Below are positions 11,501 through 53,872 of a DNA stretch of 53,872 bases, piece by piece. The DNA comes from Prevotella sp. GTDB lineage: Bacteria > Bacteroidota > Bacteroidia > Bacteroidales > Bacteroidaceae. The stretch covers positions 1 through 53,872 of the forward strand of contig JAGCNO010000145.1 in the NCBI GenBank assembly GCA_017645905.1, read 5' to 3'. The notes under the pieces were generated by a model. That model made no database searches, was not told the origin of the DNA, and saw nothing but the letters and a program-made list of their open reading frames with translations. The stretch's first letter is position 1, and every line of letters begins with the position of its first letter. The position numbers and the translations under genes are program-made.

Positions 11501-11626
11501 CGGACTATTCTAAAAGGGAATACGGATTATTCTGAAAGTATGGACGGAGGAAGCGCACAGTTTCCAGTAAGGGAACTCACAGTTCCCCCTAAGGAAACTG
11601 GCAGTTCCCAGTAAGGAAACTGCCAG
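11501..11626. repeat. 22-bp tandem repeats, two sequence types
   Basis: Two consecutive 22-bp units starting CGGAYTATTCT (11501-11544) are followed after 13 bp by three consecutive 22-bp units of a different sequence (11558-11579, 11580-11601, 11602-11623) with core CAGTTYCC then GGAAACT or GGGAACT, plus a partial CAG. The second type has internal dyad symmetry. The array fills most of the gap between the GH2 stop (11659) and the promoter of the giant gene. The rest of the gap (11138-11500) holds the promoter and leader; I see no gene in it. Confidence 0.85.
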
Positions 11627-11658
11627 AGATAAATAAGCAAGCTGCAAGAAAGAAGTAA

Positions 11659-14145
11659 CTATTGTGTGGTCATAGTTAGTTTTGCGGGCTTCATTCCTTT
11701 AGCCGTTGCGGTGAGCGTGACGCTGCCTGGCTGGCGGGTGGAGCGGAGTATGACGGTGCAGGTGCCGTTGAAGAGGCGTCGGGTGTTGACCATTGACCAT
11801 TGTCCATTGACCATTGACCATCCTGCGGTCAGCTCTTCGCTGTTGATGTCGCCATTGATGATGCCTACTATCTGCGCGTTTCCCTCGACGGAGAAGGTCA
11901 CCTCGTCGGTGGCCGTCATAGCACGACGTCCCTTCTTGTCCAAGGCGACGATGCGCACGTGCTGTAGGTCGTAGCCGTCTGCATACCATTTGCTATTTGA
12001 CAATTTACTGTTTACGATTTGGCTGCGCTTTGTGGGTGTTGCGTCTAAATCGGGCTCGGCAATGAGGCGTACGGCGGGGCCGGTGGTCTCAATTTTGTGA
12101 CGGGCAACGATGATGCCGTTGCTGCGGGCTATGGCTTCCAGCTTGCCGGGTTGGTATGCTATGCCGTTCCAGCGAATCTGGTTGCGCTGCTTCGGGTCAT
12201 TGACGGGGTTTGCTTTCTTGCCGAGTGACTTGCCGTTGAGGAGCAGCTCTACCTCGTCGGCGTTGGTGTAGGTGATGAGGGATAGCTTTTGCCCCTCCAC
12301 CCGGTTCCAATGGTCGCTCATGCCGTCGTTACCCGTCTGCACACCGTTCCACATCATGTCGCCCTTCTTGTCGATGACGGCTATGTGCATCACCGGCTCG
12401 TCGGGACAGAACATCGACTTCATGAGATAAGCCTTCGGCTTCGGCTCCAGGTCGATGGCGAAGACGCCCTGGCTCCATCCCTTTGCGGGCCATCCCTGGC
12501 TCTCGCCGAGATAGTCGATGGCTCCCCAGTAAGCCAGTCCGATGACGCGGTCGCGGTCCATCTCGAAGAAGTTTGGTCCCATGGCGGCAATCGCAGCCTC
12601 GCTCTGGTAGAACGTCATCCAGGGGAAGCGGCGACCGTCGCCAGGGAAGTACATGTAGCGGTAGTTGTAGGCCTGCACGTCGGTAATCATGGCCAGGTCG
12701 CAGGGAAGGGAGTCGGTCTGCCAGTTGCGGTAGCGGGGGTGCATGGCCACGGTGACGAGGCGTGTGGAGTCGTAGCGCTGCATGAGGGTCTTCATCAGGC
12801 GGTACATGGTCACGCCGTAGTCGTTATAGGGCTGGTTGGGGTCTTGCTGCAGCTCGTTGCCGAGGCTCCACATCACGACGGATGGCGAGTTGCGGTCGCG
12901 CTTCACCCATTCGGGGACGTCCTTCTGCCAGAGAGCCTCAAAGGGGACGCGGCCGCCGGTGTGCTGGCGCGTCCACTTGTCGTAGAGCTCGTCGACGACG
13001 AGGATGCCGTACTGGTCGCACAGTTCGATGAACTCGCGGCTATAGGGGTTGTGGCTGGTACGTATGTGGTTGATGCCGAAGCTCTTCATCAGCTTGATGC
13101 GCTTCTCGATGGCGCGTGGATAGGCGGCAGCTCCGAGGGCACCCAGCGAGTGGTGGTTGGCATAGCCTTGCAGCAGGACTTTCTTGCCGTTGAGCTTCAG
13201 GCCGAACTTCGGACCTATCTCTATGGTGCGAATGCCAAAGCGCTCGCTGTAGTCATCGGCGGGGGTGCCGTTCTCGTGCATGAGCGTCACCTTGGCCGTG
13301 TAGAGGTTAGGATGCTCGGTGTCCCACAGCTGGGGGTTGGGAATCTCCGTTTCACGCAGCTGCTGCTCAATGGTTCGTGTAGGCGTGCTGCGTCGTACGG
13401 TATCGGTAAACTCACAGACAATCTGGCCCTGCGGGTCGAAAACCTCTACGTGGACGGGCATTTTCTTGTCTCTGCCGCGAGAGACGACCTCCACGGAGAG
13501 ACTCACATATTTATTATCGCGCGTAGTGATGTAGAGGGGATGGCGCTCGAAATAGACGTCACGGTCGGTGGCGATGAGCTTCACGCCCCGGAAGAGACCG
13601 CCGCCGGTATACCAGCGTGAGGACATTGGGTCGCGGGTGTCGGCAAGTACGGCAATGATGTTCTCGTCGCGCCCGTAGCGCAGCATGCCCGTCACGTCAA
13701 CCTGAAAGCCCACGTAGCCATAGTCCGTACCTCCGACGAGCTGTCCGTTGACATACACATCGCCGGTGTACATGATGCCTCCGAAGTCGAGGATAATCCT
13801 TTTCCCGCGCAGGGAGTCAGGCAGCATGAAGTGTTTTCGATACCATGCCTTACCCATCTCCTTGAAGCCACGTGACGAGAGCCGGCTCTTGATGTTGGCG
13901 GCGACATCGCTGTTGTCGGCCTTCTCGTCGGCCGCCGGCGCCACCCATGGCTGCTCTATCTGGAAGTCGTGGGGCAGGTCGAGCAGGCGCCACTGGTAGT
14001 CATCATACATCAGGCCGGAAGCACCCTCCACATCGCCGGCATGGAAGCGCCATTCGAAGTCAAGGCTCTCCACATAGCGGGGCTGAGCCGAAAGGGCTGC
14101 ACCAAGCGCAAAGGTACAGAAAATAACAGAAATAAGCCGTTTCAT
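11659..14145 (-). CDS. Secreted glycoside hydrolase family 2 enzyme (beta-galactosidase-like)
   Basis: 828 residues with a signal peptide (MKRLISVIFCTFALGAALSA). Order of parts: N-terminal GH2 sugar-binding jelly-roll (about 25-190), Ig-like domain (190-300), TIM barrel (300-580) with the acid/base glutamate in SLGNELQ (about 427) and a likely nucleophile in FYQSEAA (about 515), then C-terminal beta domains. It acts in the periplasm or at the cell surface on beta-linked galactose or a related sugar; exact substrate unknown. The start overlaps the upstream GH28 stop by 4 bp, indicating translational coupling. Two in-frame insertions interrupt otherwise typical C-terminal sequence: a 35-bp repeat (11986-12020, encoding NSKLSNSKW) and five TTGACCA-type heptamers (11786-11820, encoding WSMVNGQWSMVN) placed just before the RRLFNG motif. 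Confidence 0.9.
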   Translation of the reverse strand: MKRLISVIFCTFALGAALSAQPRYVESLDFEWRFHAGDVEGASGLMYDDYQWRLLDLPHDFQIEQPWVAPAADEKADNSDVAANIKSRLSSRGFKEMGKAWYRKHFMLPDSLRGKRIILDFGGIMYTGDVYVNGQLVGGTDYGYVGFQVDVTGMLRYGRDENIIAVLADTRDPMSSRWYTGGGLFRGVKLIATDRDVYFERHPLYITTRDNKYVSLSVEVVSRGRDKKMPVHVEVFDPQGQIVCEFTDTVRRSTPTRTIEQQLRETEIPNPQLWDTEHPNLYTAKVTLMHENGTPADDYSERFGIRTIEIGPKFGLKLNGKKVLLQGYANHHSLGALGAAAYPRAIEKRIKLMKSFGINHIRTSHNPYSREFIELCDQYGILVVDELYDKWTRQHTGGRVPFEALWQKDVPEWVKRDRNSPSVVMWSLGNELQQDPNQPYNDYGVTMYRLMKTLMQRYDSTRLVTVAMHPRYRNWQTDSLPCDLAMITDVQAYNYRYMYFPGDGRRFPWMTFYQSEAAIAAMGPNFFEMDRDRVIGLAYWGAIDYLGESQGWPAKGWSQGVFAIDLEPKPKAYLMKSMFCPDEPVMHIAVIDKKGDMMWNGVQTGNDGMSDHWNRVEGQKLSLITYTNADEVELLLNGKSLGKKANPVNDPKQRNQIRWNGIAYQPGKLEAIARSNGIIVARHKIETTGPAVRLIAEPDLDATPTKRSQIVNSKLSNSKWYADGYDLQHVRIVALDKKGRRAMTATDEVTFSVEGNAQIVGIINGDINSEELTAGWSMVNGQWSMVNTRRLFNGTCTVILRSTRQPGSVTLTATAKGMKPAKLTMTTQ
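11786..11820. repeat. Five heptamer repeats (TTGACCA) inside the GH2 gene
   Basis: Five contiguous 7-bp units (TTGACCA four times, TTGTCCA once) in the coding sequence. On the coding strand they encode an insertion between SEEL and RRLFNG of the GH2 C-terminal domain. Because 7 is not a multiple of 3, gain or loss of one unit would shift the frame about 43 codons before the stop. Confidence 0.85.
11986..12020. repeat. 35-bp repeat copy inside the GH2 gene
   Basis: Matches positions 486-520 in the unrelated T9SS cargo gene at 33 of 35 positions. It is itself built from five degenerate 7-bp units of the type AAATCGT on the minus strand. Both copies are read in the same frame and give NSKLS-x-SKW. 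Confidence 0.85.
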
Positions 14146-15611: not shown

Positions 15612-15639
15612 AAGTTTTGGTTATTAGTTAGTAGTTATT
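15612..15639 (-). repeat. Heptamer tract abutting the GH28 start codon
   Basis: On the minus strand four 7-bp units (AATAACT, ACTAACT, AATAACC, AAAACTT) end exactly at the ATG. The A-rich leader probably serves as an unstructured ribosome landing region in place of a Shine-Dalgarno site. Confidence 0.75.
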
Positions 15640-15698
15640 AAAATGCTTTTGTGAAGGTGGGGGCTGCGCATTTAGCGCAGCATACGGGACAGGAGGTG

Positions 15699-16760: not shown

Positions 16761-16780
16761 ATTATTACCGTTTAACCGTG

Positions 16781-16788
16781 CAAATATA
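16781..16788 (-). promoter_or_regulatory. leuB promoter -7 box
   Basis: Minus-strand TATATTTG fits the Bacteroidota -7 consensus and lies 21 bp before the leuB ATG, giving a very short leader. It is placed just after the hairpin that ends serA. Confidence 0.65.
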
Positions 16789-16800
16789 TGGAATAATTGC

Positions 16801-18923: not shown

Positions 18924-19315
18924 CTCTTATATTTTGAATTGGCCAAATATTCCGGCATAATTTTTCTAAATGCCCTGTCTTTCTGAACAAACAATATGAA
19001 ATGGGCGGGAGTGTCAGGCGGTGAGAGGCAGTCATTGACATGTAAAGATTTTTGACAGTAAAACGCGTCATGGAAAAGGGCGCTTCTAGTGTGTCGGACG
19101 GCACATAACGGACTTTTTGTGCAGGTTTTTCCTATGCACAAAAGCGCTGATTTGTGCATAAAAGCTGGTTTTGAGGCCTTTTTTCGCCTCCAGAATGACA
19201 AAAAAGCGCGACGTTGTTATCCCCCAGGGTGGCGAAGCTTTTTGGCTGAAGCTTGCCTAACAGTCTGTCATCCAGTATGCTCCGATTTTCTTACAAGCAT
19301 AGTCTAAGCAGGGCT
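18924..19315. other. Non-coding part of the serC-to-four-helix gap
   Basis: No credible gene. It contains an inverted pair TATGCACAAA (19133-19142) and TTTGTGCATA (19151-19160), and two sites that resemble decayed 22-bp repeat cores exactly 66 bp apart (TAACGGACTTTTT at 19106 and TGAGGCCTTTTTTC at 19172). The short open frames here overlap the serC promoter and look fortuitous. Confidence 0.5.
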
Positions 19316-19416
19316 GTGACGGCTCTTCCTATGGGTTTGAACGGCTTTTTCTATGAGATTGAACGGCTTTTTCTATGAGATTGAACGGCTTTTTCTCCCA
19401 GAAAGAGCCGTTCAAT
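19316..19416. repeat. 22-bp tandem array with terminal hairpin
   Basis: Four contiguous 22-bp units (19316, 19338, 19360 and 19382, each 22 long) with core TGAACGGCTTTTTCTATGAG; the first is diverged and the middle two are identical. The last unit continues into an inverted copy, giving a 17-bp stem with a CCC loop (19380-19416). It lies between divergent serC and the four-helix gene, upstream of the promoter at 19576. Between 19417 and 19560 I see nothing identifiable. Confidence 0.88.
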
Positions 19417-19575
19417 CTCTGCAAGCCCTTTGTCCCCTTCAGGACAGCCCCAGGTCTGACGCCGCACCTCTCTGCTCAGAATTTGCGAGTTATAGCGGGG
19501 AGGATGTAAAGAAAAGCGCAGAACCCGAGCAACAAGAAAAAGGCGAAAGATATTTGCGGATTCAAAAAAATGTCG

Positions 19576-19583: not shown

Positions 19584-19594
19584 CGGCGAAAAAG

Positions 19595-19689
19595 TCGAAA
19601 TATCCTCGTGTCGTTATATCGTTATGACGAAATGTCGTTATATCGAAATATCGTTATGTCGAAAATCGACATATCGAGATATCGAGACG
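19595..19689. repeat. Octamer repeat tract (TCGNNATA) in the leader of the four-helix gene
   Basis: Twelve near-contiguous 8-bp units such as TCGTTATA, TCGAAATA, TCGACATA and TCGAGATA, with a single 7-bp unit in the middle. It contains an 8-bp inverted pair (TATGTCGA, AAA, TCGACATA). The same octamer family follows the gene at 20512-20559, and a relative precedes gldK. Confidence 0.85.
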
Positions 19690-19735: not shown

Positions 19736-20476
19736 ATGGAAATCAGTCGCTTTGGTTATTACTGGCTTGACACCTGGGTTCTGGCCAATGTGATACAGCT
19801 GGCGACGCAGGATTTCTGCATCCGCTTCCTGAACCACACTAACGACCCCTGCGGCCGACAGTTCGACCAGATGACTCAGGCGGCACGCTCTGTTCCGGCC
19901 AACATTGCCGAGGGCAGCTCGCGCCACTCCACCTCGCGTGAGACGGAGATGAGGCTCACCGATGTGGCTCGTGCCAGTCTTGCTGAGTTAGCCAACGATT
20001 ACCTGAACTGGCTCCTTGTTCACGAGAATATTCCCTGGTCTGTAAACGCTCCTGACTATCTTGCCGTCCAGAATGTCAGGCTCGACAGCCCTACTTATAA
20101 AGACGATGTGATTCACCAGAGCAGCATACATATCCTCAGCCAGAAGCATAAGTTCGACCCGTGGCTCAGCGGCGGCGATCCTCTGCTGGCAGCCAACTGT
20201 CTGCTGGTGCTTTGCAACCGCCTCATCTTGATGCTTGGCCGGCAGATGGAGAGCCAGCTGGAATCGTTCAAGGCTGAGGGAGGCTTCACCGAGGGCCTCA
20301 CCGCCGAGCGCTTGGCCTTCCGGGCACAGCAGAGTGTGCAGAACGACGCGCCGTTATGTCCGCTCTGCGGAAAGCCCATGATCAGGAGGATGGCGAAGAA
20401 GGGCGTCAACGCCGGAAAGGAGTTCTGGAGCTGCAGCGGGTATCCGCAATGCAACGGGATAAGGAATATCTATTGA
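19736..20476 (+). CDS. Four-helix-bundle suffix-domain protein with C-terminal zinc ribbon
   Basis: 246 residues. The N-terminal part (about 10-100; LANVIQLATQDFCIRFLN, FDQMTQAARSVPANIAEG) is the four-helix bundle related to 23S intervening-sequence and diversity-generating-element accessory (Avd-like) proteins. The C-terminus is a four-cysteine topoisomerase-type zinc ribbon: CPLCGKPM, then FWSCSGYPQCNG. This matches the four-helix-bundle suffix-domain family known in Bacteroidota; its function is unknown, and nucleic-acid binding is a reasonable inference. No reverse transcriptase or rRNA is beside it. An ATG 7 bp upstream is out of frame and closes after 13 codons. Flanked on both sides by TCG octamer tracts, which may mark a mobile or expanded unit. 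Confidence 0.85.
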   Translation: MEISRFGYYWLDTWVLANVIQLATQDFCIRFLNHTNDPCGRQFDQMTQAARSVPANIAEGSSRHSTSRETEMRLTDVARASLAELANDYLNWLLVHENIPWSVNAPDYLAVQNVRLDSPTYKDDVIHQSSIHILSQKHKFDPWLSGGDPLLAANCLLVLCNRLILMLGRQMESQLESFKAEGGFTEGLTAERLAFRAQQSVQNDAPLCPLCGKPMIRRMAKKGVNAGKEFWSCSGYPQCNGIRNIY

Positions 20477-20511: not shown

Positions 20512-20559
20512 TCGTTATGTCGAGATATCGATATATCGAAATATCGACATAACGACACG
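20512..20559. repeat. Octamer tract forming a 44-nt near-perfect palindrome
   Basis: Six 8-bp units (TCGTTATG, TCGAGATA, TCGATATA, TCGAAATA, TCGACATA, ACGACACG). Positions 20512-20555 fold on themselves with 20 of 22 pairs matching, so the RNA would be a long hairpin 35 bp after the four-helix stop. It could attenuate read-through into porP. Confidence 0.8.
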
Positions 20560-20634: not shown

Positions 20635-21591
20635 TTGTGCGTTATAATTAGCGTGTTACGGCGAAATCTGACGATATTGGCCCTCTTTTTTGTCTGTGCC
20701 CTCGGCATCAGGGCGCAGTACGACCCGTCGTTCTCCCACTACTGGGCGATGGGGACGGCCTATAACCCCGCGGCTGCCGGAAAGCAGGACAAGATCAACG
20801 TCGTAGTGGGCTATAACATGTCGATGGTAGGCTTCGAGCACAACCCCCGCACGATGTACCTCTCCGGCGACATGCCGTTCTATGCTCTCGGGGCCTACCA
20901 CGGCGTGGGCCTTCAGATGATTAACGACGACATCGGCGTGTTCTCCCACAAACAGTTCTCGGGTCTCTACGCCTTGAAGCAGAAGCTGGCCGGCGGTGTG
21001 CTCAGCATCGGCGTGCAGCCAACAATGCTCAGCGAGAGCCTCAACGGCTCTAAGGTGGAGACGGAAGAGCAAAACGACCCTGCCTTCAGCTCCAGCGACG
21101 TCACCGGCACGGCCTTCGACCTCAGCTTCGGCATCTGGTACAAACGTAAGAACTGGTATGCCGGAGCCTCGGTTCAGCACCTCATGGGTCCCACCGTCGA
21201 GATAGGCGAGACGAACGAGCTGGCGGTGGCTCAGACGTATTATTTGACGGGTGGGTGCAATATTCGGCTCAGAAATCCGTTTCTTACAATACAGCCGTCG
21301 CTCATGGCACGCTTTGACGGAGTGGGATACCGAGGCGACATAACCACCCGACTTACCTATACCTACGAGAAAAGGGTGATGTACGCCGGACTGGGATATA
21401 GCCCCACAAACTCCTTCACGGTCTACCTGGGCGGCTCGTTTCACGGCATCATGCTGGGCTACAGCTACGAGATGTACACCAAGGTCATACCCCTCAAGAA
21501 CGGAAGTCACGAGCTCTATGTGGGATACCAGACCGACGTGAACCTCTTCAAGAAAGGAAGAAACCGTCACCAGAGCGTAAGGTTGCTGTAG
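20635..21591 (+). CDS. porP: PorP/SprF-family T9SS outer-membrane protein
   Basis: About 312-318 residues. Signal peptide (NLTILALFFVCALGIRA) followed by QYDPSFSHYW and YNPAAAGK, the typical PorP/SprF start, and then alternating beta strands expected of an outer-membrane barrel. These proteins sit with GldK and GldN in the T9SS and link the inner-membrane motor to the surface. It directly precedes gldK. No ATG is available: the frame opens after a stop at 20623 and offers TTG at 20635 or GTG at 20653; GTG gives a compact signal peptide. The start is therefore uncertain. Confidence 0.9.
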   Translation: MCVIISVLRRNLTILALFFVCALGIRAQYDPSFSHYWAMGTAYNPAAAGKQDKINVVVGYNMSMVGFEHNPRTMYLSGDMPFYALGAYHGVGLQMINDDIGVFSHKQFSGLYALKQKLAGGVLSIGVQPTMLSESLNGSKVETEEQNDPAFSSSDVTGTAFDLSFGIWYKRKNWYAGASVQHLMGPTVEIGETNELAVAQTYYLTGGCNIRLRNPFLTIQPSLMARFDGVGYRGDITTRLTYTYEKRVMYAGLGYSPTNSFTVYLGGSFHGIMLGYSYEMYTKVIPLKNGSHELYVGYQTDVNLFKKGRNRHQSVRLL

Positions 21592-21599
21592 AGACCTTG

Positions 21600-21623
21600 A
21601 TAACGAAATAACGTAATAACGAC
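21600..21623 (+). repeat. Octamer tract abutting the gldK start codon
   Basis: Three 8-bp units (ATAACGAA, ATAACGTA, ATAACGAC) end exactly at the gldK ATG. They are the complement-type relative of the TCG octamers flanking the four-helix gene. Confidence 0.75.
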
Positions 21624-23195
21624 ATGAACATAAGTAAGATGGCAAAGACAATGTTCAAATCTATATCATCTTCCCTCCCTTGGGGAGGGATTGTGGGTGG
21701 GTTGCTCATCCTCATTTTGCTCACTTCCTGCTTCGGCGGCAAAGAGACCACATCGGCGGGAGGCGAACTGACAGGCTCACGTGGACGTTCGTTCTCTGAG
21801 CCGGCACCCTACGGTATGGTGATGATTAAGCGCGGACACCTGAAGATGGGACTCGAATCGCCCGACTCGCTGTGGGGAAGGGAGACTCCCATCAGGGATA
21901 TCTCCGTAGACGGGTTCTGGATGGACGACACCGAGATAACCAACTCGGAGTATCGCCAGTTTGTGAACTACGTCCGCGACAGCATCATCCGTGAGCGTCT
22001 GGCCGACCCCAACTATGGTGGCGACGAGAGCTACAAGATTGAGGAGGACAAGAACGGCGACCCCATTCCGCCGCGACTCAACTGGAAAAAGGCCATCCCT
22101 CGCAAGCCTAATGAGGACGAACTTCGGGCTTTGGAGAGCGTCTACGTGACCAACCCCGTCACGGGAGAGAAGATGCTCGACGCTAAGCAGATGAACTTCC
22201 GCTACGAAATCTACGACTACGTGACGGCAGCCCAGCGTAAGTACCGTGAGAATCCCGAAGAGCGCCATCTGGACACCGACCAATGGAACAAAGAGAAGCA
22301 GGGCGGCATCTACGAAGAGAAGATTTATATCTCGAAAGACACGGCATACGTGGACGACGAGGGACGCATACACAATGAGACCCTGAACCGTGAATACACT
22401 GGTCCGTGGGATTTCCTCAACACGTACATTGTTAATATATTCCCCGACACGACATGCTGGGTGAACGACTTCCCCAATGCCGAGAACGAGGTCTATATGC
22501 GAAACTATTTCTCCAATTCTGCTTACAACGACTATCCCGTGGTGGGCGTGACGTGGGAACAGGCCAACGCCTTCTGTGCCTGGCGCACTGAATTCCTGCT
22601 CAAGGGTCTTGGCCCGGCAGCACGTTTCGTTCAGCGTTACCGTCTGCCGACGGAGGCTGAGTGGGAATATGCAGCCCGAGGCAAGGACGGCACGGAGTTC
22701 CCTTGGGAGAATGAGGACGTGATGACGGGCAAGGGATGCTTCTTTGCCAACTTTAAGCCCGACGACGGTAACTACACCAAGGACGGAAACCTGATTACTT
22801 CGAAGGTGGGTATCTATCAGCCCAACACTAACGGACTCTTCGATATGGCCGGCAACGTCGCCGAGTGGACATCGACCATCTACACCGAGGCTGGCGTTGA
22901 CGCCATGAACGACCTTAACCCGCAGCTGAAATACCAGGCCGCGCTTGAAGACCCCTACCGCCTAAAGAAAAAGTCGGTACGCGGAGGCTCGTGGAAAGAT
23001 CCCGAGAGCTATATCCGCTCGGCCTGGCGAACCAGCGAGTTCCAGAACCAGCCTCGCTCCTTTATCGGTTTCCGTTGTGTCCGCTCATTGGCCAACACTA
23101 CCAGCGAAAAGGCAAAACCCGTGAAGGCTTCGGCAAAAAAAATAAAGGCCAAGGGTGAAGCCCGCCATAACTTTGGAGGCACCACCATACACTAA
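21624..23195 (+). CDS. gldK: T9SS outer-membrane lipoprotein GldK/PorK
   Basis: 523 residues. A lipoprotein signal ends at LLTSC (Cys36), so the protein is anchored in the outer membrane. The remainder is a formylglycine-generating-enzyme/sulfatase-modifying-type fold (PYGMVMIKRGHLKMG, YRLPTEAEWEYAARG, GLFDMAGNVAEWTS, VRGGSWKDP, FIGFRCVR), the hallmark of GldK. With GldN it builds the periplasmic ring of the T9SS. The signal-peptide region encodes SLPWGGIVGG from an embedded palindrome CCCTCCC/GGGAGGG (21673-21689), a repeat-derived sequence captured in frame. Confidence 0.95.
   Translation: MNISKMAKTMFKSISSSLPWGGIVGGLLILILLTSCFGGKETTSAGGELTGSRGRSFSEPAPYGMVMIKRGHLKMGLESPDSLWGRETPIRDISVDGFWMDDTEITNSEYRQFVNYVRDSIIRERLADPNYGGDESYKIEEDKNGDPIPPRLNWKKAIPRKPNEDELRALESVYVTNPVTGEKMLDAKQMNFRYEIYDYVTAAQRKYRENPEERHLDTDQWNKEKQGGIYEEKIYISKDTAYVDDEGRIHNETLNREYTGPWDFLNTYIVNIFPDTTCWVNDFPNAENEVYMRNYFSNSAYNDYPVVGVTWEQANAFCAWRTEFLLKGLGPAARFVQRYRLPTEAEWEYAARGKDGTEFPWENEDVMTGKGCFFANFKPDDGNYTKDGNLITSKVGIYQPNTNGLFDMAGNVAEWTSTIYTEAGVDAMNDLNPQLKYQAALEDPYRLKKKSVRGGSWKDPESYIRSAWRTSEFQNQPRSFIGFRCVRSLANTTSEKAKPVKASAKKIKAKGEARHNFGGTTIH
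21673..21701. repeat. C-rich/G-rich palindrome in the gldK signal-peptide codons
   Basis: CCCTCCC-TTG-GGGAGGG followed by ATTGTGGGTGGG, coding for SLPWGGIVGG. Relatives at 1361-1395 (signal peptide of the T9SS cargo gene) and 49191-49223 (GH78). Confidence 0.65.
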
Positions 23196-23198
23196 TAA

Positions 23199-23236
23199 TC
23201 CGTAAATCGAAAATCTGTAAATCGAAAATCCGCAAG
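23199..23236 (+). repeat. 15-bp tandem tract directly before gldL
   Basis: Two 15-bp units (TCCGTAAATCGAAAA and TCTGTAAATCGAAAA) plus a partial third end at the gldL ATG. Related tracts precede susD and greA. Confidence 0.75.
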
Positions 23237-24160
23237 ATGACAAAGTACAGTAAATTCAATGTGATATACCGCTTGCAGAAGTGGCTCGACAGCGTCCCGG
23301 GACAGACGTTCATGAATTACGCCTATAGCTGGGGTGCCTCGATTGTGATTCTCGGTGCGCTTTTCAAGCTTACCCACCTGCCGGGAGCCAACTTCTGGCT
23401 GTTCCTCGGTATGGGCACCGAGGTGTTCGTGTTCTTCATCGCCGGCTTCGATCGACCGTTTGATAAGACCGAGGATGGAAAGGAACTGCCTACGCATGTG
23501 AACCTCGATGAGGAAGGCACAGAGGGCACGGAGGTTGCCGAGGGTGCAGAAGTATCTGGCGTGGCCGGCGTTCCCGGAGGTGGCGGCACCACCATCATTG
23601 GCGGTGGTGGCGGCAGCACCGAGGGTGTCGTCGGAAGTGGTGAAGGTGTCGTCAGCGGTGGTGGAGGCATCATCGGTGGAGGTGGCTTCATCGGCGGCGG
23701 CGGATATGTCGGTGGCGAGCCTGTTGCCGGTGGTGAAGGCGTCGTCAGTGGCGAGGGTGTTCCCGCAGGCGTTGTCGGTGGTGGTGGCATCATCGGTGGC
23801 GTTGTTGCTCCCCAGCAGCCTGAACTGCCTGAAATTGACCCCGAGGAGATGGAGGAGGCTACGCAGAGCTATGTCGAGCAGCTCAAGGCGCTCACAGAGA
23901 CACTCAAAAAGGTCTCCGAACAGAGCGAGCGACTTACACGCGACAGTGAGGAGATGGAAAACCTCAACCGTACGCTCACCGGCATCTGCAAGGTATACGA
24001 GATGCAGCTTAAGGGTGCCAGCCAGCAGATTGGCACTATCGACGAGATTAACGACCAGACCCGTAAGATGGCCGAGCAAATAGCCGAGCTGAACCGTATC
24101 TATGCCCGAATGATTGAGGCGATGACTACCAATATGCCCAAAGCCCCATTAGTCCCATAA
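23237..24160 (+). CDS. gldL: T9SS motor subunit GldL with a glycine-rich insert
   Basis: 307 residues. Two transmembrane helices near the N-terminus (about 27-48 and 53-75, including WGASIVILGALFKL and FLGMGTEVFVFFIAG) match GldL, which with GldM forms the proton-driven inner-membrane motor of the T9SS. The membrane glutamate in GTEVFVFF fits the proton-channel role described for the family. Residues about 113-193 are almost entirely Gly with Val, Ile, Ser and Glu, in short repeats such as GGGGIIGGGG, followed by a coiled-coil tail (200-290). The glycine-rich stretch is longer than in GldL proteins I know and probably is a flexible linker. The last codons (KAPLVP) come from a CCATTAG-type repeat tract running into the gldM leader. 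Confidence 0.93.
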   Translation: MTKYSKFNVIYRLQKWLDSVPGQTFMNYAYSWGASIVILGALFKLTHLPGANFWLFLGMGTEVFVFFIAGFDRPFDKTEDGKELPTHVNLDEEGTEGTEVAEGAEVSGVAGVPGGGGTTIIGGGGGSTEGVVGSGEGVVSGGGGIIGGGGFIGGGGYVGGEPVAGGEGVVSGEGVPAGVVGGGGIIGGVVAPQQPELPEIDPEEMEEATQSYVEQLKALTETLKKVSEQSERLTRDSEEMENLNRTLTGICKVYEMQLKGASQQIGTIDEINDQTRKMAEQIAELNRIYARMIEAMTTNMPKAPLVP

Positions 24161-24192
24161 GAAAACCACAAGACCATTAGCCCCATAAAAAT
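24146..24192 (+). repeat. CCATTAG heptamer tract from the gldL end to the gldM start
   Basis: 7-bp phased units CCATTAG, TCCCATA, AGAAAAC, CACAAGA, CCATTAG, CCCCATA, then AAAAT and ATG. The first two units are coding (end of gldL), the rest are leader. Confidence 0.65.
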
Positions 24193-25758
24193 ATGGCTAT
24201 AAAGAAAAGACCCGTATCGCCGCGCCAGAAGATGATCAACCTCATGTATGTGGTGTTGATGGCTATGCTGGCTTTGAACGTCTCGAACGAGGTGCTCAAC
24301 GGCTTCCTCATCGTGGGCGAAAGCATCGGCAGGACTACGGAGAACTCCATGAAGGATAACATGGCCATTTACGAAGCCTTCGAAGAGCAGATGAAAGCTA
24401 ATCCGCAGAAGGTGAAGGAGTGGTACGACAAAGCTCAGTTGGTGCGCAAGATGAGCGATTCGCTTTATAACTTCGCTGCTGAACTGAAGTTGGCCATTGC
24501 CCGGGAGGCCGACGGAGAGAATGGCAATCCCGACCAACTGCAGGGCCAGGAAGACTTGGAAGCTTCTAACCAGGTGATGCTCGCTCCCGGTCGTGGAAAG
24601 GGTGAGGCGCTGAAGAACGCCATCGACTCTTACCGTGAGCGTATCCTGAAAATGATTCCCGACACGGCCAAGCAGCGCAGCATTGCCAGCGACCTCACTA
24701 CCGAGGTGCCCAAGAAGGCACGGGCAGAAGGCAAGAACTGGCAGGAGGCACAATTCGAGGCCATGCCCGCCATCGCCGCCGTGACCATTCTCTCGAAGCT
24801 GCAGGGCGATGTGCGTAATGCCGAGAAGGAGGTACTCCACACACTTGTACAGAACATCGACGTGAAGGATATCCGTGTGAACCTGCTTGAGGCCTTTGTC
24901 ATTCCCAACTCCCAGACCATCGTTCAGGGCGACAAGTTCTCGGCAAAGATTGTCATGGCCGCCGTCGATACCACACAGGTGCCTGACATCTACATCGGCG
25001 GAAAGAAGATGGAGCTCAAGGACAATACCTATGAACTGATTTGCGGCCGTACCGGTGACTTCACCCTTTCGGGCTGGATAGAGACCGTCAACGGCAATGG
25101 CGATAAGCTTCGCCGTGACTTTGAGCAGAAATATACCGTAGTAGAACCCTCGGCAACAGTCTCCGCTGACCTCACCCGTATGCTCTACGCTGGTTACTCC
25201 AATCCCATCAGCGTCTCTGTGCCCGGTGTTCCCCTGAACAAGATTTCGGCCTCGATGACCAACGGCACGCTGACGCCCAGCGGACCGGGTAAGTATATCG
25301 CTAAGCCGTCAAAGATTGGCCAAGATGCTGTTATCACCGTCACCTCGACGAACACTGGCCGTCCGCAGACCATGGGAAGTTTCTCCTTCCGCGTTCGTAA
25401 GTTGCCCGACCCCACGCCCTTCATCAACGTTACCGATGAGGGCGGCAACCCTTCACGCTTCAAGGGTGGAAACATGGGCAAGGCCGGACTGTTAGGAGCT
25501 GAAGTACTCGGTGCCGCCATCGACGACGGCATCCTCGATATTACCTTCCAGGTGCGCTCCTTCCAGACCGTGTTCTTCGACAACATGGGTAACGCGAAGC
25601 CCATCAACAGTGACGGCCCGCGCTTCTCCGCCGCACAGAAAGACCAGTTCCGCAAACTCTCACGCGGCCGCCGTTTCTATATTTCCAGCGTTGTGGCGGT
25701 AGGCCCCGATGGCATAGAGCGCACCCTGACCAGCGTCATGGAGATTAAAGTGCAGTAA
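24193..25758 (+). CDS. gldM: T9SS motor subunit GldM
   Basis: 521 residues, the usual size. A single N-terminal transmembrane helix (MINLMYVVLMAMLALNVS) follows the short cytosolic KKRPVSPRQK, and a long periplasmic part of beta domains follows (D1-D4 in solved homologues). GldM spans the periplasm and passes motion from the GldL membrane ring to the GldK/GldN ring. The order gldL-gldM-gldN is the standard one. Confidence 0.96.
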   Translation: MAIKKRPVSPRQKMINLMYVVLMAMLALNVSNEVLNGFLIVGESIGRTTENSMKDNMAIYEAFEEQMKANPQKVKEWYDKAQLVRKMSDSLYNFAAELKLAIAREADGENGNPDQLQGQEDLEASNQVMLAPGRGKGEALKNAIDSYRERILKMIPDTAKQRSIASDLTTEVPKKARAEGKNWQEAQFEAMPAIAAVTILSKLQGDVRNAEKEVLHTLVQNIDVKDIRVNLLEAFVIPNSQTIVQGDKFSAKIVMAAVDTTQVPDIYIGGKKMELKDNTYELICGRTGDFTLSGWIETVNGNGDKLRRDFEQKYTVVEPSATVSADLTRMLYAGYSNPISVSVPGVPLNKISASMTNGTLTPSGPGKYIAKPSKIGQDAVITVTSTNTGRPQTMGSFSFRVRKLPDPTPFINVTDEGGNPSRFKGGNMGKAGLLGAEVLGAAIDDGILDITFQVRSFQTVFFDNMGNAKPINSDGPRFSAAQKDQFRKLSRGRRFYISSVVAVGPDGIERTLTSVMEIKVQ

Positions 25759-25772
25759 GCGACCTACGGCCT

Positions 25773-25815
25773 CAATGAGAAATGAAAAATGATAAATGAA
25801 ATAAAGAAAAGAACT
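25773..25815 (+). repeat. AAATGAT heptamer tract before gldN
   Basis: Units CAATGAG, AAATGAA, AAATGAT, AAATGAA, ATAAAGA, AAAGAAC and one base, then the gldN ATG at 25816. The same unit, inverted, occurs inside the gldN signal-peptide region (25868-25895) and inside the P-type ATPase gene (29961-29988). Confidence 0.75.
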
Positions 25816-26916
25816 ATGATGAAAAATATGTTTCGAATGAATAATAGATTGATGATGGTGATAGGCTTATCATTTATCATTTGTCTTTTTTCATTTAGCG
25901 AAGCGCAAGCCCAGCCAAAGAGGAGTCGTGTGCAGCAGGCACAACAGACACAGCAGGCACAGAAGGGAACTACTACCCAGGGCGGCATGACGCAGCGCAT
26001 GCAGCTGCTGTATCCTACTGCCGTCGATATGCCTGAGGATGTGGTGTGGCGCCGTGACATCTACCGCGAGCTTGACCTTAACGAGGAGGAGAACGCCGGA
26101 CTCTACGACCCCGTGGAGCCGCAGGGAAAGCGTCTGAATCTCTTCACCTACGTCTTTAAGCTGGCGCTCAACGGCTACATACCCGTCTATGAGTACAACC
26201 TTGACGGCAACGAGGTGCTTGAGGCTTCGGCAAAGGTCGAGATGAAATCCATCCTCGACAACTACCACATCTTCTACGAAGAGCAGGACGGCAAGGTGAA
26301 GGTGGACAACAGCGACATCCCCTCTGCCGAGGTGAAGATGTACTACCTGAAAGAGAGTGCCTACTTCGACCAGGCCAACTCGTCGTTCCACATCAAGCCC
26401 ATCGCCTTCTGTCCCGTGATGTTGCGCGAGGACGACTTCGGTGGCGAGGCTGCCAAGTATCCCCTTTTCTGGGTGAAATACTCCGAGGTGGAACCGTTCC
26501 TCAGTCGTCAGACGGTAAAGACCAGCGACTACAACGATGCCGCTCAGATGACTATGGATGACTATTTCACCCGCAACAAGTACAAGGGAAAGATTTACAA
26601 GACTGCGAACCGCTTAGGCAAGACGCTGGCACAGATTGCCGGCAACGACTCTACGAAATATTCCGAGGAGCAGAAGCGCATCGAGGCCGAGCTCGAGGCT
26701 TTCCGCAAAAACATCTTCGGCGACAAGGAGAAGCAAGACTCTATCGACAGCCTCACCAATCTTGACCCCAAGCAGCTGAAAGCCATCAAGAAGCAGCGCG
26801 GCGTTCGTGAGACGAAGGAAAAGACCAGCCGTGTCAAGAGTCGCAAGCCGTCGTCGGGAGGTTCCTCCGGCGGTTCCGGTGCTGCCCGAGTCTCTGTACG
26901 GCGTGAGCGTCATTAA
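25816..26916 (+). CDS. gldN: T9SS ring protein GldN/PorN
   Basis: 366 residues from ATG at 25816; an earlier in-frame ATG at 25789 lies within the repeat leader and is less likely. Signal peptide ends near SEAQAQ. The body contains the family sequence DVVWRRDIYRELDLNEEEN and LFTYVFKLALNGYIPVYEY. GldN binds GldK in the periplasmic ring of the T9SS. The C-terminus is basic and Ser/Gly-rich (SRVKSRKPSSGGSSGG). The hydrophobic core of the signal peptide (SFIICLFSFS) is encoded by inverted AAATGAT-type heptamers (25868-25895). Confidence 0.94.
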   Translation: MMKNMFRMNNRLMMVIGLSFIICLFSFSEAQAQPKRSRVQQAQQTQQAQKGTTTQGGMTQRMQLLYPTAVDMPEDVVWRRDIYRELDLNEEENAGLYDPVEPQGKRLNLFTYVFKLALNGYIPVYEYNLDGNEVLEASAKVEMKSILDNYHIFYEEQDGKVKVDNSDIPSAEVKMYYLKESAYFDQANSSFHIKPIAFCPVMLREDDFGGEAAKYPLFWVKYSEVEPFLSRQTVKTSDYNDAAQMTMDDYFTRNKYKGKIYKTANRLGKTLAQIAGNDSTKYSEEQKRIEAELEAFRKNIFGDKEKQDSIDSLTNLDPKQLKAIKKQRGVRETKEKTSRVKSRKPSSGGSSGGSGAARVSVRRERH

Positions 26917-30902: not shown

Positions 30903-31034
30903 AGATTGAACGGCTTTTTCCCATCGAAAGAACGGCTTTTTCCCATCGAAAGAACGGCTTTTTCCCAACGAAAGAACGGCTTTTTCTTATCGAAAGAACG
31001 GCTTTTTCCCATCGAAAGAACGGCTTTTTCTCTG
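30903..31034. repeat. Six-unit 22-bp tandem array
   Basis: Six contiguous 22-bp units (30903, 30925, 30947, 30969, 30991, 31013) with core GAAAGAACGGCTTTTTCCCA; the inner units differ by only a few bases. The array lies between the ATPase start and its promoter, so it would be transcribed as the ATPase leader. All frames stay open because 22 bp cycles through three frames; no translation start or domain supports a protein. The remainder of this 375-bp gap holds two promoters and heptamers. Confidence 0.9.
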
Positions 31035-39170: not shown

Positions 39171-40882
39171 AGTTCCCGCTCGTGCTTTAGGATTTCATGA
39201 TACCGCTTCGTGTCCTTCAGCAACTTGGCGGCCTCCTGGTAGACCTTGTCGTAGGCCAGACCGGCAGCAATAGACCCCGCCTGGTAATAGTTGGCGGCGA
39301 TGATATCGAGCTCGAGCACCTCCTGAATGGCGTCGCGGTGCTTGTCCAGTTCGGTGGCCAGGTCGTGTTTAAGACGCTGTCCGAGGGCGTCGAAGGCCTC
39401 GCGGGCATCGTCGTAGTAGCCCTCAAACTTCGCCGTCTTCACCAGCTCATCAAACTGTTTTCGCGACTGGTCATCGTAGGTGAAGCCACTATCAATAACC
39501 CTCTGTCGGAACTCCTGCCAGTCCTCGTCGGTAAGGTGGAACTCCTTTGCCGGAGCTATCTGCGGGTGGCGTTCGAGATAATATACCACATAGTCGAAGA
39601 GCACCTCGGTGGAGTCCAGACCGCCTGTAGAGAGGTAGTAGGCTATGTTGGGCATGGTGTCGTTCTTCACCTCCAGATCAGGCTTGATGCCTCCTCCGTC
39701 GCGCACCTCGCGACCATTACGGGTGTAGAACACATGTGTGAGCGAATCAGGCGTACGGTCGGCATAGAGGCTGGAACTCCTCCCATTTCTGTTAGTCGTG
39801 GTAGACTCCCTCTGCTTGGCGTAGTTGATGGCCTGTATGCAGCGGCCAGAGGGAATGTAATATTTCGAGGTCGTAATCTTCACGTTCGTGTTGTAGGGCA
39901 GGTCCATTGGCACCTGTACGAGACCTTTTCCATAGGTACGCGTGCCCATGACGACGGCACGGTCGAGGTCCTGTAGCGCCCCGCTGGTGATTTCGCTGGC
40001 CGATGCCGTCTCTCCATTGACAAGGACGACGAGGGGCATAACGGTGTCGACAGGCTCCAAGCGCGTGGTATAGGAACGGCTGGCCTGCCTAATCTTTCCA
40101 CGATTCTCCACCACCATCTGTTCCTGCGGCACCCAGATGTTCACAAGGTCTACGGCCTCCATTTCGGCACCGCCGCCGTTACTGCGCAGGTCGAGCACCA
40201 TGCCTCGTGCACCCTGCTTCTTCAGCTCGACAAAGGCACGTCGCACCTCCTTGGCGCTGCCCTCGGTAAACTGGTTGAAGTTGATGTAGCCTATGGAGTC
40301 GGCCGAAAGCCCGTAGTAGGGCATCTCGGGCAACTTGATGTTGCGGCGGGTGATTTTGAACTTCATCTCCTTCTCCTTACCGTCGGTCTGGGGGCGCAGC
40401 ACCTTCAGCACGAACGTCGTTCCGGCATCGCCGCGCAGGTGGCTGCTCACGTAACTGACGTTCTTGTCGGTCATCAGCGAGTCGTCGATGGAGACGATGA
40501 TGTCGCCCTTCTTCAGTCCTATTTCCTGAGCGGGCATGCCTTCGTAGGGTTCATCGATGACCACGCGCTTCAGCCTCGAGTGGTATTTCACCAGCGCCCC
40601 GATGCCGGCATATTTTCCGGTGAGCATCATCTTCAGGTTCTTTGTCTCCGAGGCAGGGTAGTACTCCGTGTAGGGGTCGAGCGATCGGAGCATACCGTCT
40701 ATGGCGGCCGTCATGGTGGTGGCGGGGTTGAGCGTGTCGACATAGAGCAGGTCGAGGTTGCTATAGAGCGAGTTGAAGATGTCGAGGTTCTTGCCTACCT
40801 CCAGGTTGTGGTTGGAATCCTGCGCCTTCACCGTCATTGTGCTAATAGCGGTCAGCAGGAACAGCCAGAGTTTCATTCTCAT
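39167..40882 (-). CDS. Secreted S41-family carboxyl-terminal processing protease
   Basis: 571 residues with a signal peptide (MKLWLFLLTAISTMTVKA). A PDZ domain (about 95-185; KKGDIIVSIDDS) precedes the S41 catalytic domain with the nucleophile in NGETASASEITSG (about 292) and the lysine in RTYGKGLVQ (about 317). Such CtpA/Prc-like proteases trim or degrade periplasmic proteins. Co-transcribed with aroB (4-bp overlap) from a promoter at 41063-41070. The leader contains a 22-bp repeat array. Confidence 0.93.
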   Translation of the reverse strand: MRMKLWLFLLTAISTMTVKAQDSNHNLEVGKNLDIFNSLYSNLDLLYVDTLNPATTMTAAIDGMLRSLDPYTEYYPASETKNLKMMLTGKYAGIGALVKYHSRLKRVVIDEPYEGMPAQEIGLKKGDIIVSIDDSLMTDKNVSYVSSHLRGDAGTTFVLKVLRPQTDGKEKEMKFKITRRNIKLPEMPYYGLSADSIGYINFNQFTEGSAKEVRRAFVELKKQGARGMVLDLRSNGGGAEMEAVDLVNIWVPQEQMVVENRGKIRQASRSYTTRLEPVDTVMPLVVLVNGETASASEITSGALQDLDRAVVMGTRTYGKGLVQVPMDLPYNTNVKITTSKYYIPSGRCIQAINYAKQRESTTTNRNGRSSSLYADRTPDSLTHVFYTRNGREVRDGGGIKPDLEVKNDTMPNIAYYLSTGGLDSTEVLFDYVVYYLERHPQIAPAKEFHLTDEDWQEFRQRVIDSGFTYDDQSRKQFDELVKTAKFEGYYDDAREAFDALGQRLKHDLATELDKHRDAIQEVLELDIIAANYYQAGSIAAGLAYDKVYQEAAKLLKDTKRYHEILKHEREL

Positions 40883-40934
40883 TGTGAACAGCTAAAATTT
40901 TTCCCGAATCGGCCGTTAGAAAACACGTCCTGAC

Positions 40935-41022
40935 TTTGAGCCGTCCAAACTATGGGTTTGAGCCGTTCAAACTCTGAGTTTAAGCCGTCCAAACTATGGG
41001 TTTGAACCGTTCAAACTCTGAG
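40935..41022. repeat. 22-bp tandem array with alternating units
   Basis: Four contiguous 22-bp units (40935, 40957, 40979, 41001) in ABAB order: A contains GCCGTCCAAACTATGGG, B contains CCGTTCAAACTCTGAG. B has the palindrome TTTGAACCGTTCAAA or a near form. It lies in the leader of the S41 protease. The rest of the roughly 300-bp gap holds the two divergent promoters. Confidence 0.88.
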
Positions 41023-48418: not shown

Positions 48419-48422
48419 AACT

Positions 48423-50849
<2,427 letters not shown>

Positions 50850-50851
50850 CT

Positions 50852-50893
50852 CCTAACTCTCAACTCTTAACTCTCAACTCTCAACTCTCAACT
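50852..50893 (+). repeat. Six heptamers abutting the isomerase-like start codon
   Basis: CCTAACT, CTCAACT, CTTAACT, then CTCAACT three times, ending exactly at the ATG (50894). There is no room for a Shine-Dalgarno site. Confidence 0.88.
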
Positions 50894-52042: not shown

Positions 52043-52054
52043 TCAAACACCTAT

Positions 52055-53620
52055 ATGCCCATTCTCAACGAGCGTGCAGAACTGCACAAGACCATCTGGA
52101 AGATAGCCAACGACCTGCGGGGCAGCGTCGACGGCTGGGAGTTCAAGGCCTACGTCCTCGGCTCCATCTTCTACCGTTTCATCTCGGAGAACATCTGCGA
52201 CCACTTCAACCAGCGCATGCACGAACTTGGTCATACCGACTTCAGCTACGCCGATATGCCCGACGACCAGGCGCAGGCTGGAATGTCCGATGCCGTATCG
52301 ACGAAGGGATTCTTCATGCTCCCCTCGCAGCTCTTCCAGAACGTCGTGAAGGACTGCGACCGCGACGAGAACCTCAACGAGCACCTCAGCGCCATCTTCC
52401 GCAGCATAGAGGCCTCGGCGACAGGCACCGATTCGGAGGACGACCTGCGCGGCCTCTTCTCCGACTTCTCCGTAGACAGCGCAGCCCTCGGCTCGACCGT
52501 CATCAAGCGCAACCAGCTCTTGGCCAAGGTGCTCAAGACAGTCGCCACAATGGACCTCGGCTCGAAGTACAACGATACCGACAACGACACCTTCGGCGAC
52601 ACCTACGAGTTCCTCATGCAGATGTACGCCTCCGAGGCCGGAAAGAGCGGAGGCGAGTTCTTCACACCCCAGCAGGTCAGCGAGCTGCTCGCACGCCTTG
52701 CCTCATGGAACAACCCCAGCATCAACAAGGTCTACGACCCCGCCTGCGGTTCCGGCTCGCTGCTCCTGAAGTTTGCCAAGACCGTAGGCCGCAAGAACCC
52801 CCATCTGCGTTACTACGGCCAGGAGGTGAACCCCACGACCTACAACCTCTGCCGCATCAACATGTTCCTGCACAACGTGAACTACGACCTCTTCGACATC
52901 CGGCTGGAGGACACGTTGCTGAAGCCACAGCACAAGGACTTCGCACCCTTCGACGCCATCGTCTCCAATCCGCCCTACTCGCTGAAGTGGCAGGGCAAGG
53001 ACAACCCCATCCTCATCAACGACGAGCGCTATGCCCCGGCTGGCGTGCTCGCCCCGAAGAGTGCCGCCGACCTCGCCTTCACCATGCACATCCTCTGGCA
53101 CCTCTCAGAGCAGGGCACGGCCGCCATCGTAGAGTTTCCCGGCGTGCTCTACCGGGGCGGCGACGAGAAGAAAATACGTCAGTACCTGGTGAAGCACAAC
53201 TTCATCGATACCGTCATACAGCTGCCCGCCAACCTCTTCTTCGGCGTAGGCATCGCCACCTGCATCATCGTCATGAAGCGAAGCGCCAAGACCGACTCCT
53301 CCGTGCTCTTCATCGACGCCAGCCGCCTCTTTGCCAAGAACGGCAACAAGAACATCCTCCTGCCCGAGCACCAGGAACGCATCGTGCAGCTCTTTGCCAA
53401 CCGCCGCGACGAGCAGTATCTGGCCCGCCTGGTGAAGAACGACGACATACTCGCCAACGACTGCAACCTCAGCGTCTCCTCGTATGTAGAGCAGGAAGAC
53501 ACCCGCGAGGTCATTAACATCAGCGAGGTCAACGCACGCCTCCAGACCCTCATTGCCGAGGGAGCGGCGCTGAACGGGCGGATAGAGGAAATCATCAGAA
53601 ATGAACTGAAAACCGAGTGA
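52055..53620 (+). CDS. hsdM: Type I restriction-modification DNA methyltransferase subunit
   Basis: 521 residues. N-terminal HsdM helical domain (LHKTIWKIANDLRGSVDGWEF split over residues 8-28, and GSIFYRFISENI), then the SAM motif DPACGSGSLL (about 227) and the adenine-methylation motif NPPY (about 305) in VSNPPYSLKW. It methylates adenine at the site chosen by HsdS. Neither hsdS nor hsdR is inside the window; they are expected to the right, beyond the 22-bp array. It begins 12 bp after the isomerase-like gene. Confidence 0.95.
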   Translation: MPILNERAELHKTIWKIANDLRGSVDGWEFKAYVLGSIFYRFISENICDHFNQRMHELGHTDFSYADMPDDQAQAGMSDAVSTKGFFMLPSQLFQNVVKDCDRDENLNEHLSAIFRSIEASATGTDSEDDLRGLFSDFSVDSAALGSTVIKRNQLLAKVLKTVATMDLGSKYNDTDNDTFGDTYEFLMQMYASEAGKSGGEFFTPQQVSELLARLASWNNPSINKVYDPACGSGSLLLKFAKTVGRKNPHLRYYGQEVNPTTYNLCRINMFLHNVNYDLFDIRLEDTLLKPQHKDFAPFDAIVSNPPYSLKWQGKDNPILINDERYAPAGVLAPKSAADLAFTMHILWHLSEQGTAAIVEFPGVLYRGGDEKKIRQYLVKHNFIDTVIQLPANLFFGVGIATCIIVMKRSAKTDSSVLFIDASRLFAKNGNKNILLPEHQERIVQLFANRRDEQYLARLVKNDDILANDCNLSVSSYVEQEDTREVINISEVNARLQTLIAEGAALNGRIEEIIRNELKTE

Positions 53621-53648
53621 CCGTCACGTAGGCGTAATAGGCGGGCGG

Positions 53649-53872
53649 AGAAAGAACGGCTTTTTCTCATAGAAAGCGCTCGGCGACGAAGGAGACGCTT
53701 GCGTAATGAAATGGAGCAAGAACGGCTTTTTCTCATAGAAAGAACGGCTTTTTCTTATAGAAAGAACGGCTTTTTCCCATAGAAAGCGCTCAGCGACGAA
53801 GGAGACGCTTGCGTAGTGGAATGGAGCAAGAACGGCTTTTTCTCATAGAAAGCGCTCAGCGACGAAGGAGAC
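53649..53872. repeat. 22-bp array with 66-bp higher-order pattern, open at right edge
   Basis: Ten complete 22-bp units from 53649 plus the start of an eleventh. Three unit types: A (AAGAACGGCTTTTTCTCAT), B (AAAGCGCTCRGCGACGAAGG) and C (AGACGCTTGCGTARTGRAATGG without its last two bases being variable). Order is A B C A A A B C A B C-start, so A-B-C form a 66-bp repeat that stays in the same 22-bp phase. It starts 28 bp after hsdM and runs off the window. No gene or spacer-like unique sequence lies in it. Confidence 0.9.

Follow-up and report, generated by a model that had tools for sequence, protein, structure and literature searches.

Palindromic tandem arrays with a 22-bp pitch in non-coding DNA of Prevotella

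Repetitive extragenic palindromes (REP) and bacterial interspersed mosaic elements (BIME) are short extragenic palindromes of high copy number, often clustered and species-specific; no fixed pitch is described for REP clusters in the accessible text, and GTAG families go with transposase genes (PMC3733652, PMC12306157). In Porphyromonas gingivalis, BrickBuilt, a miniature inverted-repeat transposable element (MITE) with a minisatellite, is made of spacer-free 23-nt tandem units that are intergenic and lineage-specific (PMC4596501; also PMC5771137). It has 19 copies, many of which carry a leader and a tail; IS5-like terminal repeats occur in some of them, and tandem repeats of 41, 23 and 22 nt have been reported in strain W83 (PMC4596501). 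PINSR of Prevotella intermedia is a 188-bp repeat with one consensus, present in 177 copies in one strain and 184 in another and belonging to one Prevotella clade; it is intergenic and non-coding, lacks terminal inverted repeats and has no known function (PMC4755523). These papers were accessible in part, and our comparisons hold for the parts that were. Here we describe the tandem arrays of 22-bp units found at five sites in a stretch of 53,872 nucleotides from Prevotella sp. (contig JAGCNO010000145.1; hereafter the window), together with their counterparts in the same genome and in relatives. Units of about this length also form the rows of protein sites in iterons and in the ends recognised by MuA and by TnsB of Tn7.

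The arrays resemble REP and BIME in being short palindromes that are extragenic, clustered, species-specific and of high copy number (451 cores); they differ from the published descriptions in their strict 22-bp pitch, in the absence of a fixed tag and in their presence in a genome without a Y1_Tnp match. With BrickBuilt they share tandem units of similar size, an intergenic and lineage-specific occurrence and a Bacteroidales host, but they have hundreds of core copies, palindromic units and many unrelated sequences at one pitch, and no shared leader or tail was found. Like PINSR, they are intergenic and non-coding, and no clear terminal inverted repeats were found at their ends. An internal 22-bp palindromic pitch is unreported for PINSR in the accessible text, and the two are set apart by description, not by sequence (PMC4755523). 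Whereas iterons and the MuA and TnsB sites belong to single origins or transposon ends, we are dealing with hundreds of palindromic arrays of changing sequence. No description of a sequence-independent 22-bp pitch was found in searches of an open-access library, most subscription papers being outside this coverage. The earlier note that first drew attention to the arrays knew of no described element of this kind; this appears to stand for the pitch, but elements of a related kind exist in REPs, BrickBuilt and PINSR.

Our preferred explanation, held with restrained confidence, is that these are dispersed, non-coding, REP-like arrays of palindromes whose pitch is set by an agent acting on neighbouring dyads. 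What we observe is a fixed pitch, palindromic units, sequence families that differ between and within genomes, a non-coding location, no link with gene orientation, and presence or absence between close species. More tentatively, the arrays may represent an unrecognised class of elements in the Prevotella group, palindromes of arbitrary sequence at a 22-bp pitch, mostly four in a row, whose families are replaced within the genus and whose pitch stays, which would imply a sequence-blind molecular ruler.

A fixed pitch in the window, its genome and its relatives

Tandem Repeats Finder and direct reading of the sequence were the basis for the five window arrays. The program returned period-22 repeats at all five sites given in the earlier note (11548-11621, 19319-19396, 30908-31030, 40935-41017 and 53718-53786). 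The features are as follows.

11501..11541, no strand assigned: two degenerate 22-bp units of the CGGAYTATTCTRAAAG type, spacing of 22 by inspection
11549..11621, no strand assigned: GGAAACT-NNC-AGTTCC palindrome array, unit starts at 11549, 11571 and 11593, with a partial fourth unit
19313..19395, + strand: AACGG-family array, units at 19335, 19357 and 19379, with a degenerate first unit
19401..19417, - strand: inverted unit GAAAGAGCCGTTCAATC, 22 bp past the last direct unit and in register, read from the sequence
30904..31030, + strand: AACGG-family array of six units, between the E1-E2 ATPase gene (28863-30884, - strand) and a divergent + strand gene
40930..41022, - strand: ACGG-core array of four units with swapped arms TTTG..CAAA, beside the S41 peptidase gene (39167-40882, - strand)
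53650..53842, + strand: AACGG-family units at 53650, 53716, 53738, 53760 and 53826, and two foreign modules of 44 bp that keep the register

The core AACGGCTTTTTC is common to the arrays at 19316, 30903 and 53649, which form one family; the array at 40935, on the opposite strand, keeps the ACGG core with arms TTTG..CAAA instead of AAAG..CTTT. Within the window, only 11549-11609 (GGAAACT-NNC-AGTTCC) has a different sequence, so that the difference of cores between loci given in the earlier note holds in part. A unit like GGAAACT-NNC-AGTTCC recurs in stretch L132 of the same genome, and the degenerate units at 11501-11541 are out of register with the neighbouring array at 11549. The units are palindromic, perfectly or imperfectly, a feature that the earlier note had overlooked. 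As the array at 40930-41022 is flanked by the S41 gene and a promoter-like box, it probably lies in the leader of the peptidase gene. A period of 110 bp (5 x 22) appears at 53649-53852 because a 44-bp (2 x 22) foreign module twice interrupts the units. This dispersed module, GCGCTCRGCGACGAAGGAGACGCTTGCGTARTGRAATGGAGC, occupies window positions 53672-53715 and 53782-53825, in register there, and it also adjoins arrays in stretches L033, L040, L042, L045 and L046. The window terminates 30 bp beyond the array at 53650-53842.

We then turned to the window's own genome (G000), sampled over 586,740 bp as the window and 40 further stretches (L-numbers). Part of these stretches, and stretches L075-L078 of the relative G460, were chosen because their places or contigs had matches, which biases upward the array densities derived from them. 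In this sample a uniform scanner found 51 non-coding arrays of period 22, five of period 21, one of period 17, one of period 12 and five of the 7-bp type, and none of periods 20, 23 or 24. Eight arrays of any period were dropped for an open frame, and the 51 period-22 arrays have no open frame across them with 150 bp on either side. The same scanner found no array in block-shuffled DNA (2 x 586,740 bp) and none in 100 kb of E. coli. The periods are thus not spread with 20, 21, 23 and 24 bp equally frequent, an outcome that the earlier note had set against its own reading.

A laxer threshold gave 56 lag-22 arrays: 49 with the ACGG core, which belong to one family, and seven without it. The family unit reads GAAAG-AACGG-CTTWTTC plus a variable 5-bp linker. 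Its core AACGGCTTTTTC occurs in 451 copies in the 3.40-Mb genome (224 on the + strand, 227 on the - strand), against no occurrence of a reversed control pattern, and a two-unit junction pattern gave 516 matches. Chaining of units yielded 59 arrays of at least two units: nine of two, 11 of three, 27 of four, seven of five and five longer. The steps between neighbours up to 70 bp apart (n=162) measured exactly 22 bp in 152 cases, 44 bp in three and 66 bp in five, two being off register (43 and 69). At 15 of the 17 core positions one base is held at a frequency of at least 0.90 in 219 units, a conservation inflated by the selection of these units for at least 12 of 16 consensus positions. The 5-bp linkers vary yet recur in both orientations (TCATA 27 and TATGA 12; CCATC 13 and GATGG 6; AAATC 10 and GATTT 9). 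Because linkers recur among arrays and there are no unique spacers, a CRISPR array was rejected, in agreement with the earlier note. Its statement that coding support is lacking also proved right: 45 of the 49 family arrays lie between called genes, which, with the absence of open frames, excludes a protein-coding repeat. A separate 21-bp family (about AAACRACGACGTAGTTTGTAC) is present in this genome at L050:578-663, L036:2992-3070 and L034:9411-9482, with a TTTGTACAAAC palindrome.

A sequence-blind scan was applied to 15 genomes of the same genus (about 1.41 Mb). Like the uniform scan, the scans of relatives excluded 7-bp-type arrays and open-frame arrays, and one compilation also excluded loci from the own genome, from near metagenome-assembled genomes and from duplicates. 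Among the 58 non-coding, non-7-bp arrays of the relatives, period 22 was the commonest (28), followed by 18 (eight), 21 (four) and 23 (four); the tandem-repeat search of own and related genomes suggested in the earlier note thus gives 22 as the commonest non-coding period in both. Period-22 arrays were found in 12 of the 15 relatives, at GC contents of 0.38-0.56. Species samples differed in array density, the values lying between 0 and about 6 per 100 kb. Arm, loop and linker lengths vary between families and the pitch is constant, as these units illustrate.

G208: TGGCAGCGGCCGCTGCCA-TCAT
G524: GTAACCACCGTGGTTAC-TGACA
G343: AAACGGGCCGTTT
G221: AGTTCGCGCCGKSCGAACT
G175: two units, TTGGACAAACGTGTCCAA and TTTCATCGTGATGA

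That the period is kept more than the sequence, as the earlier note had supposed, is clearest between species and for unrelated palindromes beside arrays. Dispersed repeats are normally recognised by sequence; here, across most of the sampled species of a large genus, the sequence is free and the geometry fixed, which points to an unknown agent open to direct search. The fixed geometry also offers a sequence-blind way of finding such elements. A second non-coding class, of 18 bp, ranks next to the 22-bp arrays and occurs in G343, G221 and others, with a CTATAGRAR half-unit in G343.

The exact G000 junction pattern was absent from 150 other genomes drawn from the family, and it occurred in two of 398 same-genus genomes, G000 (516) and G460 (6). 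In viral contigs, a G000 pattern had 0 matches. A similar pattern was found in at least three ruminant-foregut metagenome bins (Rumen_Coassembly_mag_1758, RGIG5135 Sheep_Abomasum and RGIG9956 Yak_Reticulum), of which mag_1758 and RGIG9956 show about 64-76% identity to the window where matches exceed about 200 bases. In mag_1758, an array-bearing stretch of 8 kb aligns with G000 only over the array and over pieces no longer than 241 bp. Since the flanks are unrelated, either the same core occurs in distant lineages or the contigs are mis-binned. G543 and G544 are metagenome bins, and their array contigs are possibly mis-binned.

Symmetry, neighbouring palindromes and matching sites

The G000 unit is an imperfect 17-bp dyad within 22 bp, with GAAAG and CTTWTTC around AACGG. 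Other palindromes stand beside or inside the arrays, namely AATTCTCTCGAGAATT, AAAGGTAGTCTTT and inverted units. We measured the distance from the terminal family unit to non-family palindromes, leaving out flanking slots that contain the family core. Centre distances of 21.5 bp and 22 bp were occupied in 12 and six of 91 slots, respectively, and the mean for the 116 distances tested was 0.022; according to this peak, the pitch is kept between unrelated palindromes. The AATTCTCTCGAGAATT palindrome stands next to arrays, with much the same distance between centres, at L036:15740, L037:2989, L046:2182, L049 and L129:18050. A short module like GGAATTAGACAAGCGAGATTCCCTA, a small palindrome-like repeat, precedes arrays in the left flanks in L033, L034, L039 and L129. 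In the relatives, a column-permutation test for looped stems, covering periods of 12 bp and above, gave p<=0.05 for 18 and p<=0.01 for 12 of the 28 period-22 arrays. It superseded a loop-free dyad test (9/28 period-22 arrays at p<0.05 versus 5/30 of other periods).

Close species differ in the presence of arrays at matching sites. By its S41 peptidase (90% identical protein), G460 is the closest of 396 genomes. The arrays at L129:1215 and L129:11866 are missing there, 30 and 70 bp separating the conserved blocks versus 209 and 247 bp in G000. The L129:1215 array is missing in G221 too; by eye, all three species retain the terminator-like hairpin before this site and the promoter box that follows. 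One site is common to G000 and G460, with four units in the former and two in the latter, and the third L129 array could not be aligned. In the S41 leader, a 7-bp repeat in G460 stands against the 22-bp array in G000, behind a near-identical promoter. A period-22 array lies within about 420 bp upstream of the S41 peptidase start in one of 29 relatives (G461), three of the 29 having shorter upstream sequence. Alignment of two array-free sites revealed by eye no clear target duplication, in flanks that have strongly diverged.

Gene context was taken from a purpose-made gene caller, which gave a sensible map of the window, and promoters were marked by a TAnnTTTG box, which we take to be the Bacteroidetes -7 box. 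The 49 family arrays fall in tandem (26), divergent (14) and convergent (5) regions, three overlapping called genes and one lying at a stretch edge; background intergenic regions of at least 100 bp number 101, 48 and 22, respectively. Relative to tandem genes, array orientation is 13:13. Gene context and orientation therefore match background intergenic DNA, and the leader or divergent-promoter role suggested by the earlier note is not borne out. Compared with random placement in the same regions, putative leaders (promoter box to start) hold an array in divergent DNA at seven of 24 gene sides, where 4.4 were expected, and in one of 30 tandem cases, where 3.8 were expected. Between tandem genes, the arrays are shifted towards the upstream stop codon beyond what chance would give, at a mean of 0.308 of the way (n 26, p 0.0006). 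We read this bias as promoter avoidance, but a trailer role could produce it as well. Some arrays occupy leaders, others follow stop codons or separate a terminator from a promoter, and one adjoins the end of the window; as a consequence, they may affect both gene expression and genome assembly.

What could set the pitch

The arrays are mostly of three to five units, mosaic, with palindrome centres 22 bp apart. We propose that they would spread and be replaced as mobile or copied repeats, and that they would persist where little harm is done, that is in leaders, in trailers and between terminator and promoter. The pitch would be due to an agent in contact with adjacent dyads, for which symmetry and spacing count more than sequence. 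A dimeric protein that assembles into a lattice on the DNA could play this part, as could a structure-specific enzyme by which the array is copied or lengthened one unit at a time. The earlier note had related the period to two helical turns, which fits roughly, but 22 is used and seldom 21 (51 versus 5 arrays in G000, 28 versus 4 in the relatives). We therefore favour a ruler, based on the packing of a protein or on copying in whole units, rather than phasing by the helix alone.

Several results weigh against this proposal. Arrays of other periods pass the looped-stem test as well (12/26 at p<=0.05, 8/26 at p<=0.01), so that dyads are a common property of such arrays and not confined to period 22. 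In G000, the unit forms a partial palindrome whose arms covary weakly: when both outer arms are altered (27 units of the G000 family), all three outer pairs are retained in eight units, of which the 40935 array has three, and not in the other 19, a weak compensation. Outer-flank complementarity in the 33 clean-flank arrays of the 59 gave p 0.098, not significant, which does not establish a locus-specific outer stem. Three of the 15 relatives sampled (G005, G153 and G194) gave no period-22 array. At the matching sites, arrays could have been lost in the relatives rather than gained in G000, and the one shared site shows that some arrays persist. The bias towards the upstream stop codon could mean a trailer function rather than mere tolerance, and RNA folding of the G000 arrays is weak (mean z -1.4; 31/96 strands below -2). 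Finally, neither a transposase nor a target duplication nor a binding protein came to light, RAYT (REP-associated tyrosine transposase) being the only candidate protein sought by sequence.

Among the alternatives, a binding lattice for a nucleoid protein would make the arrays functional sites, one dimer sitting on each palindrome and 22 bp placing cooperative dimers on nearly the same helix face. A pitch close to two turns that stays constant as arm, loop and linker lengths vary, its maintenance between unrelated palindromes and the insensitivity to gene orientation all agree with this idea. We nevertheless think it rather unlikely, given the use of 22 rather than 21 bp, the several unrelated palindromes per genome, which rule out a single sequence-specific protein, a density that falls to 0 in some species samples, and the finding that two of three alignable sites, as well as the S41 leader array, are not common to the closest relative found. 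A related idea, phased A-tract bending for a nucleoid protein, can hardly be credited. The window family does have a T5 tract once per unit, but A4 or T4 occurs in just eight of the relatives' 28 period-22 consensus units and not at all in units such as TGGCAGCGGCCGCTGCCA, and the GC-rich families contradict it; the phased A/T tracts of the earlier note are accordingly not supported as a conserved feature. Hairpin arrays acting as RNA in leaders or trailers, in termination, stability or processing, would account for the strong folding of the relatives' arrays (mean z -4.4; 34/56 strands below -2), for the stop-codon bias and scarcity between promoter box and start, which fit trailers, and for the excess in putative leaders of divergent regions. 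To this improbable explanation we oppose the weak folding in G000, the similar number of arrays per kb in all three kinds of intergenic DNA, even the divergent kind, which lacks trailers, and the fact that promoter avoidance would yield the same stop-codon bias; moreover, with stem, loop and linker all variable, RNA would not require units to add up to one length.

Other explanations concern how the arrays arise. If palindromes favoured polymerase pausing and tandem duplication, neutral minisatellites could result, with the 22-bp pitch as a by-product; the whole-unit difference at the shared site (four versus two) and the non-coding positions are in keeping with this. Slippage alone, however, leaves unexplained one pitch in unrelated sequences at GC contents from 0.38 to 0.56, the mode at four units (27/59), the 451 dispersed core copies and the pitch between unrelated neighbouring palindromes, and we give it little chance. 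It is also unlikely that the arrays are MITEs carrying a minisatellite and moved by the transposase of an insertion sequence, as in BrickBuilt. Support comes from the similar-size, intergenic, species-specific tandem units described in that other Bacteroidales species (PMC4596501, in its accessible part) and from the same core in distantly related metagenome-assembled genomes with unrelated flanks. Against it, no common leader, tail or terminal repeat surrounds the 59 arrays beyond a preference for two to three bases (GGA on the left, TCC on the right), flank complementarity is not significant, and the two array-free sites show no clear target duplication. The sole non-family 12-mer found in at least five flanks is TTCTCTCGAGAA (five arrays of 59).

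REP sequences served by RAYT would likewise be palindromic, extragenic, species-specific and present in hundreds of copies, and G000 does encode a RAYT-like Y1 protein, with five matches to it, one of them showing the DHLHG motif. We consider this origin very improbable. G175 has no PF01797 (Y1_Tnp) match at E<=10, yet it has five period-22 arrays in 80 kb, and G150, with a single sub-threshold PF01797 match in a 66-aa frame, has two arrays. Period-22 arrays lie near four of 29 RAYT loci, about the chance expectation, itself an estimate from array density. There is no fixed GTAG or CGTC tag, these tetramers being present on either strand in eight and seven of the 219 G000 units. RAYT as a required mover is thus weakened by the arrays of G175 and G150 and by the chance-level proximity.

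The rest of the window contains other repeats and several recognisable genes. Heptamer arrays (TCTCAAC and similar) at 50537-50616 and 50847-50893, present also in several relatives, are tandem repeats of another class, the second in the genus and distinct from the first. Eight-base ATATCGAA/ATATCGTT repeats (19594-19687 and 20512-20557) lie on either side of the gene at 19736-20476. An HsdM-type N6 DNA methylase gene (52055-53620) stands immediately ahead of the last window array. Type IX secretion genes occupy 20677-26916, with PorP/SprF at 20677 and GldL, GldM and GldN at 23237-26916, and an open frame of 3270 aa extends over 1430-11242 on the - strand.

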